The notes under the pieces were generated by a model. It was not told where the DNA came from. It saw only the letters and a program-made list of their open reading frames with translations, and searched no databases. Below, piece after piece: positions 29,717 through 35,690 of a stretch of 41,539 nucleotides of DNA. A program made the position numbers and the translations under genes. The stretch is from positions 1 through 41,539 of the forward strand of contig JAKJCY010000008.1 in assembly GCA_022706235.1 (NCBI GenBank), given 5' to 3'. This DNA comes from Candidatus Hydrogenedentota bacterium. GTDB taxonomy: Bacteria > Hydrogenedentota > Hydrogenedentia > Hydrogenedentales > CAITNO01. Position 1 is the stretch's first letter, and the number at the start of each line of letters is the position of its first letter.

Positions 29717-30037
29717 TTAATGAAACAAGGTGTTTATCGGGCGTATCCGAGCTATATTCTTTTTCAACGCGCGGGTGGCATCCCAAAGGTCCACGGCACG
29801 CTGGGCTTTCAGCCAGTATTCAGGGGAATTGCCAAAGAAGCGTCCCAACCGAACCGCCAGCTCGGGACTGAGTGAACGCCGTTCGCGAAGCAGTTCATTG
29901 ATGGTCTGCCGTGAAACGCCCACAGCATCAGCCAGCGACGCCGCACTCAGGCCATATTCCGGAAGAAAATCTTCACGAAGCATTTCTCCGGGATGGGTGG
30001 GGCGAATGGTTCTTTCTACTGTATTTGGAAGGCTCAT
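29717..30037 (-). CDS. higA: HigA-type antitoxin
   Basis: This 106-residue protein is a helix-turn-helix antitoxin of the HigA/VapI group. It opens with the family hallmark 'RPTHPGEMLREDFLPEYGLS'. The DNA-binding helices 'ASLADAVGVSRQTINELLRE' follow, then 'LAVRLGRFFGNSPEYWLKAQ'. It should neutralise the toxin encoded upstream and repress the shared promoter. The ATG at 30037 has GGGAGATAGG upstream. It begins 14 bp after the higB stop, in the toxin-first order typical of higBA. Confidence 0.93.
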   Translation of the reverse strand: MSLPNTVERTIRPTHPGEMLREDFLPEYGLSAASLADAVGVSRQTINELLRERRSLSPELAVRLGRFFGNSPEYWLKAQRAVDLWDATRALKKNIARIRPINTLFH

Positions 30038-30051
30038 AAACCTATCTCCCG

Positions 30052-30333
30052 TTAGTGATAGTCCGTAATTTCGACGTCATAAGCATTGCCCGCCATGAAA
30101 CGGAAGCATATACGCCATTGGTCGTTAATCGCTATTGAATAAAATCCCTTACGGTCCCTTCCCAATCCATGCAACCGGTTGCTTGGAGGTATCTTCAAGT
30201 CGTCCAAACATGTCGCCAGGTCAACATATTCCAATTTGCGTATTGCGCGTTTGAGAATATCCGGCGATACTCTCCGCGATTGTCCAAGCGTATACAACTC
30301 CTGCGTATGACGATCGGCAAAAGTCTTTATCAT
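30052..30333 (-). CDS. higB: HigB-type toxin (RelE/ParE superfamily)
   Basis: This 93-residue protein is a HigB-like plasmid-maintenance killer toxin. It starts 'MIKTFADRHTQELYTLGQSR' and ends with the conserved 'LHGLGRDRKGFYSIAINDQW' and 'RICFRFMAGNAYDVEITDYH'. Relatives cut mRNA at the ribosome. The family start fits ATG 30333 exactly. The promoter -10 box lies only 6 nt upstream, which predicts that transcription begins at the start codon. Loss of the pair would leave the stable toxin, so the module may stabilise this accessory region. Confidence 0.93.
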   Translation of the reverse strand: MIKTFADRHTQELYTLGQSRRVSPDILKRAIRKLEYVDLATCLDDLKIPPSNRLHGLGRDRKGFYSIAINDQWRICFRFMAGNAYDVEITDYH

Positions 30334-31476: not shown

Positions 31477-31524
31477 AAAAGGCCCGGGCGACCCTTCGCA
31501 CACGGCTACCAGGCCACCCGGGCC
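31477..31524 (-). terminator. Possible terminator of the DGR transcript
   Basis: On the minus strand GGCCCGGG (31524-31517) pairs with CCCGGGCC (31488-31481), and TTTT follows at 31480-31477. The stem is 8 bp of pure G/C, but the loop is long (28 nt) and the T-run short, so termination is plausible rather than certain. Confidence 0.45.
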
Positions 31525-31587
31525 GGGTTCTGTATTTGTCCATGCGCGTGTCATAGTCGCGCACGGCGCGGGAACAGGCCTGTAGTC

Positions 31588-31685
31588 TCCCGTAACGCCC
31601 TTTCGGGCTGCGCGCTCCGGGACATTGTCCTGGGACACGCCGCTTTCGGCGTTCACCGGCGGTGAAGACCGAAACCCGGGTTCGG
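31588..31685 (-). ncRNA. Structured RNA region downstream of the template repeat
   Basis: Four small hairpins lie in a row just beyond the TR. CCGAA/TTCGG arms are at 31669-31673 and 31681-31685. A 6-bp stem TTCACC/GGTGAA with a 3-nt loop is at 31652-31666. CGCCG/CGGCG with an AAAG loop on the minus strand is at 31638-31651. GCCC/GGGC with a GAAA tetraloop on the minus strand is at 31597-31608, enclosed by TCCCG/CGGGA (31588-31592 and 31618-31622). In the Bordetella phage DGR, a structured spacer beside the TR is needed for cDNA priming. I infer a similar role here. Confidence 0.55.
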
Positions 31686-31689
31686 GAGT

Positions 31690-31826
31690 CTTGCGGGACG
31701 AAACCGAAACCGCGACGCGGAACCCGTTGTTGTTGTTCCTGTTGTCCGGGTTGTTCCTGTTGCGGTTGGCCGAGCGGGTGTTCCTGTTGTTGTTGTTCCA
31801 GGAGCCGCCCCGCAGCACACGATACG
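31690..31826 (-). repeat. DGR template repeat (TR)
   Basis: This 137-bp segment aligns without gaps to the 3' end of the target gene (33321-33457, offset 1631). On the minus strand its core is packed with AAC codons, giving Asn-rich translation such as 'GGSWNNNNRNTRSANRNR'. This is the usual design of DGR templates, where A is the mutable base. Between 31727 and 31797 all 15 differences from the VR are A in the TR and G in the VR. The flanks are identical, including a 16-nt G/C-rich block (31711-31726). It begins 3 nt after the RT stop codon. It is not a gene remnant, because no start or full domain precedes it. Confidence 0.93.
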
Positions 31827-33221: not shown

Positions 33222-33245
33222 ACTTCAAAATTCCAAATTTTTTTT

Positions 33246-33273
33246 AGCAAGGGGGGAAGGCTCCCCCCTTGCA
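33246..33273. repeat. G/C-rich hairpin downstream of the VR
   Basis: GCAAGGGGGG at 33247-33256 is perfectly complementary to CCCCCCTTGC at 33263-33272. An added A-T pair inside gives an 11-bp stem with a 4-nt loop. It starts 49 bp past the target stop codon. Hairpin/cruciform elements with 4-nt loops after the VR are known in phage and bacterial DGRs and raise retrohoming efficiency. Confidence 0.8.
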
Positions 33274-33320
33274 TCCCCCCTCAAGACCAAGGACCAAGAT
33301 TCCAAGTGCCAAGGATCCGG

Positions 33321-33457
33321 CTAGCGGGACGAAACCGACAACGCGACGCGGAACCCGCCGTCGCTGTCCCTGTCGTCCGGGTTGTCCCTGTCGCGGTCGG
33401 CCGAGCGGGCGTTCCCGTCGTCGTCGTCCCAGGAGCCGCCCCGCAGCACACGATACG
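33321..33457 (-). repeat. DGR variable repeat (VR)
   Basis: This is the last 137 bp of the target gene, encoding residues about 514-558 and the TAG stop. It matches the TR except at 15 A-to-G sites in the core and at three flank positions nearest the stop (33323, 33339, 33341), which distinguish the two ends. The 16-nt identical block 33342-33357 is the likely initiation-of-mutagenic-homology site. The encoded core is Asp-rich ('GGSWDDDDGNARSADRDR'). Confidence 0.93.
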
Positions 33458-34997
33458 AACCGGTGGACGGCCCCGTTGGGTTCGTGACCGGCTCTGTTGT
33501 GTACACGCGATACCACCAGTCGTGGCACCACTCCCACACATTGCCGCTCATGTCATACGCGCCCACGGGACTCGTCGCGTTCACCGTCAGCGTGCCCGGT
33601 GCGCTCACCCGTGCCGGGTTCACCCCATTATACCAGCCCACCGGAGAAGTATAAGGCCAATCCAGGCCCAACGGGTTCGCGTAATCCTCAGACTCCCAAT
33701 CAGAATAGTTCGCACGGGTAAAATCAATGGTGTCGCTGGTCATGCCGTAGCGCCAATGCCGGCTGCCGTCCCAAGCCGCCGCCCGTTCCCATTCGGCCTC
33801 CGTGGGCAGGCGATACCCGTTGCGCACCGGTGCATACCGCGTCCAGTTCGAGGTATCGTAACAGGCCTGCAATCCGTTCTTCTCGCTCAACCAGTTGCAG
33901 TAACACACTGCACCGTACCACGAAACGTCGGTCATGGGATGGTCCGCCATGGAATACAGCACACCGCCATGCCCCGTGCGGCTGCGCACACCAAACACAC
34001 CGCCGCTGTACGTGATTTGGGAATAATCATAAGAGGCTTGTGTATCCGCGATGGGTTGGTTGTAGGCATAAATCAACCCGCCCGTGTACGTGCCTCCACT
34101 CGAATTTTTCAGGTAGCCCCGTCCCTGGGCCCAGTTCAACACGTCCGCGTACTCCTGGTTCGTCACTTCATACTTGCCGATCCGGTAGGCGTCCAGATAT
34201 ACGCCATGCACCGGCACCTCATAGCTACTACCCTCATACCAGGGATCACCCATCTGAAACGTTCCGGCAGGCACGTCCACCAGTTCCCCGGGAACCACCA
34301 CCGGTTCGCCTTCCACGGGAATCTCGCCTTCGCCCAAGGCAACAAATTCCGCTATCACGTGTTTGTCCGCATTTATCACGACCAACGCGGGCACTTGACT
34401 GCCGCTGAGGTCGCCTGTCCAATGGTGAAAGGCATAGCCAGGATACGGCACGGGCGTCAGAGTAACCTCTGTCCCCTCCGGATACAGCCCGCACCACGGC
34501 TGTCCGGCGACTGGCGGGCACAGCTCGCCCGGTTCCGGGTCCGGCGTGATGCTGCCATGGATATACTCCGGACTCACCGCGCCCAATCCCAGCATCAACG
34601 AATACATGACTTCCCCTTCCGCAGGCGCCGGTAATTCCCAGCACATGGGCGGCTCTTCACCCGCATCGTAGGCATACCACTCCCCGTTCTGCCACAGATA
34701 GGCCGCGCGGATGGCGTAGGACATGGAACAGCTGCCCTGCTGCCAGCACGCCAGATACCCAATCGCCTCACTCATCGTCATCCGGCCATCACCGTTGGAA
34801 TCCGCCGGGTGGCTTTGAAACGGCGGTTCCCCCTCGCCCTCAGGCGGGAGTTCCCCTTCGTATGGGGTCTCGCCTTCGTAATACCACTCGCCTTCCATCA
34901 CTTCCGCCCGCGCCGCTACGACGCCGAACAATACTACCGCCACCAGCATCGCCAACATCACACACGCTTCACTCCAGCACACAGATTCACGAGACAT
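33321..34997 (-). CDS. Secreted DGR target protein with FGE/SUMF1-type domain
   Basis: This 558-residue protein begins with a signal peptide (hydrophobic 'VMLAMLVAVVLFGVVAARA', cleaved after ARA). Glu/Gly-rich linkers follow, then a dockerin/EF-hand-like segment ('HPADSNGDGRMTMSEAIGYL') and an InlB-type repeat ('PYPGYAFHHWTGDLSG'). A formylglycine-generating-enzyme-like domain starts at about residue 255 ('VDVPAGTFQMGDPWYEG', 'YEVTNQEYADVL', 'YRLPTEAEWERAA', 'MSGNVWEWCHDWW'). This fold is a known DGR scaffold; the C-terminal 'YRVLRGGSW...GGFRVAL' part is the VR. I infer a diversified surface or secreted binding protein. Start ATG 34997 with GGAGGA is preferred over ATG 35054 because the signal peptide then begins properly. 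Confidence 0.92.
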   Translation of the reverse strand: MSRESVCWSEACVMLAMLVAVVLFGVVAARAEVMEGEWYYEGETPYEGELPPEGEGEPPFQSHPADSNGDGRMTMSEAIGYLACWQQGSCSMSYAIRAAYLWQNGEWYAYDAGEEPPMCWELPAPAEGEVMYSLMLGLGAVSPEYIHGSITPDPEPGELCPPVAGQPWCGLYPEGTEVTLTPVPYPGYAFHHWTGDLSGSQVPALVVINADKHVIAEFVALGEGEIPVEGEPVVVPGELVDVPAGTFQMGDPWYEGSSYEVPVHGVYLDAYRIGKYEVTNQEYADVLNWAQGRGYLKNSSGGTYTGGLIYAYNQPIADTQASYDYSQITYSGGVFGVRSRTGHGGVLYSMADHPMTDVSWYGAVCYCNWLSEKNGLQACYDTSNWTRYAPVRNGYRLPTEAEWERAAAWDGSRHWRYGMTSDTIDFTRANYSDWESEDYANPLGLDWPYTSPVGWYNGVNPARVSAPGTLTVNATSPVGAYDMSGNVWEWCHDWWYRVYTTEPVTNPTGPSTGSYRVLRGGSWDDDDGNARSADRDRDNPDDRDSDGGFRVALSVSSR

Positions 34998-35259
34998 CTT
35001 ATATTCCTCCGTTTGGGTTTCCGCAGTATCATGCTTCCTACAATACAGGTTCATTCAAAGTCTAACACAGTATACACCATCCTGCGAAAACACCTCCCTG
35101 TATCCGCGTGCGTACAGTCAAAGCTGACGTGTAACCCCTCTACGCATGGACTATAACGACACGAATACGTACCATTAAAGCCCACTGCGAATACGGGAAA
35201 TGGAATTTTGTAACCAGAGGAACACACCCCCTGTATTTATCTAAAGGCGGCTTTCCCCA

Positions 35260-35350
35260 TCCTACACGTCCTACCGGTCCTACCCGTCCTACTATAGCAG
35301 ACGCGGAAATGAGGTCTGTAGGACGGGTAGGACCGGTAGGACGTGTAGGA
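35260..35350. repeat. Perfect 32-bp inverted repeat of GTCCTAC units
   Basis: 35260-35291 is the exact reverse complement of 35319-35350, with a 27-nt loop. Each arm is itself made of GTCCTAC-type units (GTCCTACCG, GTCCTACCC). It could form a long cruciform or RNA hairpin. Confidence 0.85.
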
Positions 35351-35690
35351 CGGGGGGCCGGGGTCAATACAACCTTCCTGTGCACATACAGCGCACAACA
35401 GAAAAAATGGGACTGTTCCCCGCCGCCCAATACAAAAAGACCTGAGAAAACGCCTTTACCATGGACATGGGTATACACCGATAAATACCAATTCCCCCCG
35501 CGGCGGGAACTGTCCCGCTTTTTTCGGTCTTGCGCGATACGCCCGCAAAAAGCGGGACAGCCTCCGGCGCGACACAAGATTACCTGCACCGCTCACAGCC
35601 ATCCCGCGCGCGCCGGAGGCAGTCCCATTTTTGCTTAGTCGTCGCACGCGCCGGAGGCAGTCCCATTTACGCGTCTGCTATAGTAGGACG
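35285..35690. repeat. 406-bp segment with perfect 21-bp terminal inverted repeats
   Basis: 35285-35305 (core CTACTATAGCAGACGCG) is the exact reverse complement of 35670-35690. The interior has no gene but carries a 22-bp direct repeat with core CCGGAGGCAGTCCCATTT at 35609-35630 and 35647-35668. This looks like a non-autonomous mobile element or a composite of extragenic repeats. Confidence 0.65.

Follow-up and report, generated by a model that had tools for sequence, protein, structure and literature searches.

The window analysed here, that is, the whole stretch of 41,539 nt from a Candidatus Hydrogenedentota bacterium, carries a complete DGR on its minus strand, and the hairpin under study sits within this element. 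Read on that strand, the cassette consists of an FGE-type target gene with the VR at its end, a spacer, the hairpin, an A8T3 tract, avd, the RT gene and the TR (Table 1), the avd start codon lying 25 nt beyond the hairpin. The cassette contains a DGR-type RT, an A-specific TR/VR pair, an Avd protein and a VR that is 3'-terminal in a known target fold. The RT is 38.9% identical to BPP-1 Brt over 95% (E 3e-55) and clusters in the RT tree with DGR RTs having TR/VR pairs, near the base, between the loci in which the TR follows the RT gene (TR-after-RT) and the group in which it precedes it (TR-before-RT), at a weakly supported fork (92/53). Over the 137 nt compared, 16 of the 18 TR/VR mismatches fall at TR adenines; the two others, at 33341 and 33339, look like the IMH/IMH* difference from the TR. 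As for the direction of change, 15 of 17 A-to-N changes in the window VR are to G, compared with 995/2086 over all VRs, this one included.

Table 1. Positions and supporting details of the DGR features in the window.
Feature	Positions	Strand	Basis or detail
DGR target gene, 577 aa, FGE-sulfatase domain toward the C-terminal part	33321-35054	minus	Pfam PF03781, E 7.5e-50
VR, last 137 nt of the target gene, ending at the stop codon	33321-33457	minus	TR comparison
VR-hairpin spacer, degenerate tandem array, period ~7.5 nt	33273-33320	minus	periodicity p=0.002
CTTGG cores	33309-33313, 33302-33306, 33294-33298, 33287-33291	minus	spacer sequence
Partial unit CTTGAG	33280-33285	minus	spacer sequence
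Hairpin / potential cruciform	33247-33272	minus (target-gene sense)	11 bp stem, 4-nt loop
A/T tract, A8T3 in sense, separating the hairpin from the avd start	33235-33246	minus	sequence
Accessory gene avd, 129 aa	32832-33221	minus	Pfam PF22296 bAvd, E 1.7e-14, above cut-off
DGR reverse transcriptase, 343 aa	31829-32860	minus	Pfam PF00078 (RVT_1), E 3.3e-21
TR, directly 3' of the RT gene	31690-31826	minus	87% direct repeat of VR

Several other features of the window and the genome were recorded. Two small minus-strand genes at 29717-30333 are ordered, judging from their translations, like what we take to be a HigB/HigA-type toxin-antitoxin pair. An inverted repeat at 35255-35355 has 38-nt arms, 97% complementary, made of GTAGGACGG-like units, and dispersed palindromic GC-rich repeats (GGGACTGCCTCCGGCGC and its reverse), MITE- or REP-like by their look, occur at 35499-35668 and also on contigs C144 and C29. 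The genome encodes a second, distant reverse transcriptase with 29% identity (G000:C222:17156-17917). The sequence after the TR (31500-31690, minus strand, in the window; 2212-2410 in the sister-species locus L039) is conserved and folds, and a motif like GGCCTGGTAGC...GCGAAGG.CCGCC recurs 3' of many TRs, with no Rfam match in the window; this flank likely belongs to the structured portion of the template RNA of DGRs in this group.

In target-gene sense the hairpin reads GCAAGGGGGGA-GCCT-TCCCCCCTTGC, the loop being AGGC on the opposite strand. The stem-loop of 11 bp with a 4-nt loop that a sequence-only reading had noticed just beyond the VR is indeed present, with 11 perfect pairs, although that reading had called it nearly pure G/C, which overstates the 8 G-C pairs out of 11. 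It had also set the limits at 33246-33273, correct as to location, with the true ends one base inside on both sides, and had counted 49 bp to the VR stop codon (33321-33323) where we count 48 bp (33273-33320); to the end of the extended TR/VR match the spacing is 46 bp. DNA folding gave -14.2 and -14.3 kcal/mol for the two strands (z -3.7 and -3.5), a stability equalled by none of 200 shuffles. Perfect stems of at least 11 bp with a loop of 3-6 nt are rare, numbering two in the 41.5-kb window where 20 shuffles averaged 0.05, the other being a 16-bp perfect hairpin with a 3-nt loop at 1330-1364, the window's longest. No further copy of the VR-adjacent hairpin was found in the window at up to 3 mismatches, its outer-arm pattern CAAGGGGGG...CCCCCCTTG occurs a single time in the 5.0-Mb genome, and an Rfam scan of the window returned no match.

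The same cassette is found in L039, a locus labelled Candidatus Hydrogenedentota whose RT is 90% identical to that of the window. The hairpin is identical at 25 of 26 bases and lies at an equal distance from the VR; the single difference is a loop base, GCCT in the window and GACT in L039, and the stems are identical. The alignment is gapless from the stop codon through the hairpin end and looser beyond it, the A/T flank having changed while the hairpin was conserved. Conservation beside the VR in close relatives had been set beforehand as a check on the sequence-only reading, and in this relative it holds. That the site might mark an active acceptor is likewise borne out, on an evolutionary time scale. 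More specifically, wherever the TRs of the two species differ, at 15 of 15 positions, the VR of each follows its own TR (at one of these positions the TR base is adenine in one species), and 23 of the 25 other VR differences fall at TR adenines, the remaining two being again 33341 and 33339; the VR has therefore been an active acceptor since the species split. This copying extended to a point only a few bases from the stop codon and some 50 bp from the hairpin.

To place the hairpin in its family, we surveyed 201 loci carrying or neighbouring RT relatives. An RT was found in 192 and a TR/VR pair in 153, namely 152 plus L043, which was entered by hand under a looser non-A limit. Clustering of the RTs at 90% identity gave 113 groups, 112 of them with at least 70 nt after the VR. 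A hairpin was termed strong at a score of at least 18 within 100 nt after the VR, and called at a score of at least 15 with p<=0.05. Strong hairpins follow the VR in 76 of the 112 RT-clustered DGRs, compared with 33 of 378 ends of other ORFs at these loci and 2.9-4.0% in dinucleotide shuffles, and a later set, gathered with other RT seeds, has hairpins of score >=18 in 32/56. As a positive control, the same script recovered the BPP-1 hairpin, GCGGGGCC-GAAA-GGCCCCGC, 4 bp past the annotated VR; in most relatives the distance is 20-59 bp. These results support the initial interpretation of the stem-loop as a DGR acceptor-site element. Related loci have unrelated stem sequences at the same site, and a comparison of 22 close pairs of loci showed two-sided change that preserved pairing at 9 stem pairs, and 11 one-sided changes; the window and L039 are silent on compensatory change, since their stems are identical.

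Among the called hairpins of the first set, 63/82 have a GRNA loop and 7/82 a G-N-A triloop, compared with GRNA in 7/825 for shuffled sequence, which repeats on a larger set the consensus of Guo et al. These counts are lower bounds, because the perfect-core rule misses interrupted stems with GATA loops (for example in L206, L209, L210 and L217), picks a secondary hairpin in L186 and shifts the loop in L221. The TR-after-RT loci differ, with GNA triloops, GTAA, TCAT and the window's GCCT.

Split by gene order, strong hairpins follow the VR in 69/90 TR-before-RT loci and 7/22 TR-after-RT loci, and follow the TR in 37/90 and 8/22, respectively. As TR flanks fold too, the hairpin count alone cannot separate VR from TR in the small TR-after-RT group, where 10 of 22 loci have a called hairpin and the window, with a score of 30, ranks at the top. 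Among the TR-after-RT loci, L136, L144, L155 and L168-L170 have no called hairpin; in these the VR is followed in frame by what is presumably a PEP-CTERM-like tail (VPEP motif). Six RT loci from genome G003 and other near relatives (L048, L053, L055, L059, L060, L061) contain no TR/VR pair and were left unscored; two of them have hairpins upstream of the RT.

We considered whether Avd might read the hairpin. The first set has called hairpins in 0/8 loci without detectable Avd and 82/104 with it, the eight Avd-less loci falling in about three RT clades; the link was dropped because the second set has hairpins in 16/21 loci without Avd (22/35 with it).

We then turned to the sequence between VR and hairpin. 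In the window this spacer reads GGATC-CTTGG-CA-CTTGG-AAT-CTTGG-TC-CTTGG-TCTTGAG. Over the spacers as a whole, self-match is highest at lags 7, 8, 15 and 22-23. The unit word varies between loci, CTTGG in the window and CCCTTT or ATCTGA elsewhere. Taken together, 64 TR-before-RT spacers gave z values of 14.6 and 12.1 at lags 7 and 15, 10 TR-after-RT spacers gave 6.1, 7.7 and 6.6 at lags 7, 8 and 15, and spacers thinned at 65% RT identity (n=24) still gave 9.6 at lag 7. Individually, 51 of 74 spacers are periodic at p<=0.05 and 23 lie above. The ~7.5-nt period is absent from the TR flanks (largest lag-7 z 2.7) and from 378 other ORF ends, where the period is the 3 nt of coding sequence. In the second set, hairpin loci with Avd (n=22) gave z 8.0 at lag 7 and 5.2 at lag 15, and those without detectable Avd (n=15) gave -0.7 at lag 7 and 2.9 at lag 8; the array, rather than the hairpin, may therefore go with Avd, in a comparison that is confounded by clade. 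A genome-wide search with the CTTGG array pattern returned only this spacer, with 2 overlapping matches, a count that says little because the reversed control pattern gave 3.

The unit cores of the array are under constraint. Between the window and L039, 0 of 20 core positions differ compared with 4 of 7 linker positions (Fisher p=0.002). Over 22 non-overlapping related pairs, with core words chosen after inspection, unit cores differ at 14/413 positions and the remaining spacer at 252/1023; within the RT gene the same words differ at 342/2088 positions compared with 4044/21912 elsewhere. A word-free version, based on trinucleotides repeated at lag 7 or 8, had the same sign, with 70/580 (12.1%) differing vs 196/856 (22.9%); its controls were nil at lags 5/6 and in the RT gene, and of opposite sign at lags 4/5, 9/10 and 10/11. 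The spacer is not neutral filler.

The array of phage DGRs is in phase with the centre of the hairpin. Considering [CT]TG units in the TR-before-RT group at a period of 7.5 nt (96 units from 25 thinned loci), R was 0.63 when positions were counted from the loop centre, 0.33 from the stem start and 0.27 from the VR end; in the un-thinned set, loop-centred R was highest, 0.59-0.60, at 7.0-7.25 nt and was 0.56 at 7.5. CTG peaks in this group lie near -15, -23, -30 and -37 relative to the loop centre, and the TTG units of the window lie at -52.5, -45.5, -37.5, -30.5 and -24.5. In the TR-after-RT group phase-locking was not significant (R 0.21; 46 units, 10 loci). In the openly accessible DGR literature consulted, a periodic array in the VR-hairpin interval goes unmentioned, which is no claim of its absence from print. 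The 'tandem repeat' described in PMC6642488 is, in the text available, an AAC pattern within TRs.

A GC-rich stem between two genes is also what a transcription terminator or attenuator looks like, and such an element between the target gene and avd-RT could limit mutator expression and have no role in homing. Its location would fit attenuation, and in the TR-after-RT group the called hairpins have at least 5 T in 8 bases within 0-2 nt of the stem in 7/10 and an AAATTT or T5 tract no more than 25 nt past the stem in 10/10. However, the window stem is followed by no T tract on either strand (TAAAAAAAATTT in sense, ATCCCCCC on the other) and the terminator scan made no call, so that the element is unlikely to be only a terminator, the outcome that the sequence-only reading had named as counting against it. 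Moreover, the lax T rule holds for just 14 of 70 TR-before-RT hairpins; a terminator leaves both the GRNA loops (63/82 vs 7/825 shuffled) and the array unexplained; and, because avd starts 25 nt past the stem, the interval would be too short for a promoter beyond a strong terminator. We consider this explanation improbable for the window, although in the TR-after-RT loci the hairpin may have a leaky additional function in expression. As a separate observation, an AAATTT or T5 tract lies within 25 nt of the hairpin in 10/10 TR-after-RT and 4/70 TR-before-RT called hairpins; such an A/T tract may help extrusion, bend the DNA, end transcription or serve as a leader.

A role in RNA rather than DNA could also take the form of an mRNA leader structure of avd, controlling translation or RNA stability. 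The hairpin does end 25 nt upstream of the avd start codon, in an order shared by several relatives, yet its place is fixed relative to the VR whether the TR precedes or follows the RT, the array units of phage DGRs keep phase with the centre of the hairpin, and in the BPP-1 precedent the element acts as DNA, its target sequence being reported to function in either orientation (PMC3240598). We regard the leader as still less probable than the terminator. The least credible of these explanations is a palindrome formed by chance or derived from a dispersed repeat: the genome does contain other GC-rich palindromic repeats, some close by (35255-35355 and 35499-35668), but the hairpin was kept while its A/T flank changed and recurs family-wide, and its single-copy status in the window and the genome rules out the dispersed repeat.

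We therefore interpret the hairpin as, very probably, an acceptor-side (target-site) cis-element of the surrounding DGR. According to the proposed mechanism, the inverted repeat would fold out, as a hairpin on single-stranded DNA or as a cruciform in supercoiled DNA, and the folded hairpin would mark the 3' end of the VR and hold it open. The mutagenised cDNA of the TR could thereby replace the VR and not the TR, the hairpin working jointly with the spacer array, which would be the local form of the IMH and make the VR side the acceptor. From the analogy with BPP-1, we infer that the folded form would be the acting agent and that it would raise the efficiency of homing.

Some observations speak against an acceptor role. 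The loop, GCCT (GACT in L039), is outside the GRNA consensus, the spacing of 46-48 bp exceeds the published 4-34 bp, and just 7/22 TR-after-RT loci reach a score of 18. On contig C144 of the same genome (G000:C144:31310-33037; L085 7311-9038) there is a close paralogue of the target gene with a VR changed at most TR adenines. This hypermutated trans VR runs directly into a TR-type 3' flank, with neither hairpin nor array, and looks like a VR x TR recombinant that has lost the hairpin, avd and the RT. This case demonstrates that the hairpin can be lost from a hypermutated VR and is not evidence of diversification without one.

Spacer and hairpin could also be parts of one composite acceptor signal, a tentative proposal to which we give some, though clearly lesser, credence. 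Such a signal would consist of a ~7.5-nt array running from the VR end, phased on the hairpin centre and telling VR from TR, with its period and phase kept while the word turns over, and the BPP-1 IMH would be its shortest, three-unit case. The spacer array may indeed generalise the 21-bp IMH of BPP-1, which tested alone as an array was not significant (p=0.19). On this proposal, the turnover of the unit word (CTTGG, CCCTTT, ATCTGA) under a constant period and phase would make the reader of the array likely a multimeric DGR protein or the RT-Avd-RNA particle, in contact with the DNA at regular steps.

As regards acceptor choice by DGRs, the integration step has been termed incompletely understood (PMC12875486, 2026). 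The hairpin has been known in phage DGRs since 2011; what the comparison adds is a hairpin kept beside a diversified VR in a DGR of a bacterial chromosome from an uncultured phylum, where the loop differs and the spacer is longer. The period, the phase and the core constraint of the array amount to a testable rule for the acceptor signal. If the rule were true, acceptor sites could be found without a nearby TR, and targets could be designed for DGR-based protein evolution.

Published target-site hairpins of phage DGRs are reported to have stems of 7-10 bp, GRNA loops and a distance of 4-34 bp from the VR (Guo et al. 2011, PMC3240598). In BPP-1, efficient homing needs the inverted repeat, through pairing and not through stem sequence, a loop changed to CTTT nearly abolishes function, and the 21-bp IMH sets the direction of transfer (PMC3240598); long spacer insertions are also reported to weaken BPP-1 homing. 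In E. coli, deletion of the stem-loop was described as impairing BPP-1 homing severely, not completely, targets co-directional with replication were favoured, and the authors proposed that the stem-loop prolongs an open state (PMC12875486).

The match to known cruciform elements claimed in the sequence-only reading is therefore partial: place, GC-rich pairing and the 4-nt loop agree, while the stem (11 bp against 7-10), the spacing (46-48 against 4-34) and the loop sequence (GCCT against GRNA) do not. Like the BPP-1 hairpin, that of the window is perfectly paired and GC-rich, has a loop of 4 nt and lies downstream of the VR in an Avd-RT-TR DGR, with pairing kept across loci as the stem sequence varies and no conserved counterpart on the TR side. 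It differs in the stem (11 bp compared with 8), the loop (GCCT compared with GAAA) and the spacing, 46-48 bp of CTTGG units in place of 4 bp after the 21-bp IMH, and only the window has an A/T tract after the hairpin and a TR 3' of the RT gene (5' in BPP-1). The BPP-1 IMH lies directly upstream of its hairpin, is VR-specific and can be parsed into three units (TCTGTGA CCACCTGA TTCTTGA), whereas the window spacer is longer, lies wholly beyond the TR/VR homology and has CTTGG as its unit.

Since its loop is GCCT (GACT in L039), we do not file the window hairpin in the GRNA class. This class is not universal either: the hairpins of the archaeal DUSEL4 DGR are reported to have GRA trinucleotide loops (Paul et al. 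2015, PMC4372165), comparable to the G-N-A triloops of several TR-after-RT relatives. In DUSEL4 the loops have three bases and the hairpins are located within the target gene, whereas the window hairpin lies outside the gene and has neither loop type. A further parallel comes from the group IIC intron, a related retroelement whose RT uses a DNA stem-loop as a target mark; its targets, as described in PMC3240598, are terminators with a T tract and variable loop size, in contrast to the window hairpin with no T tract.
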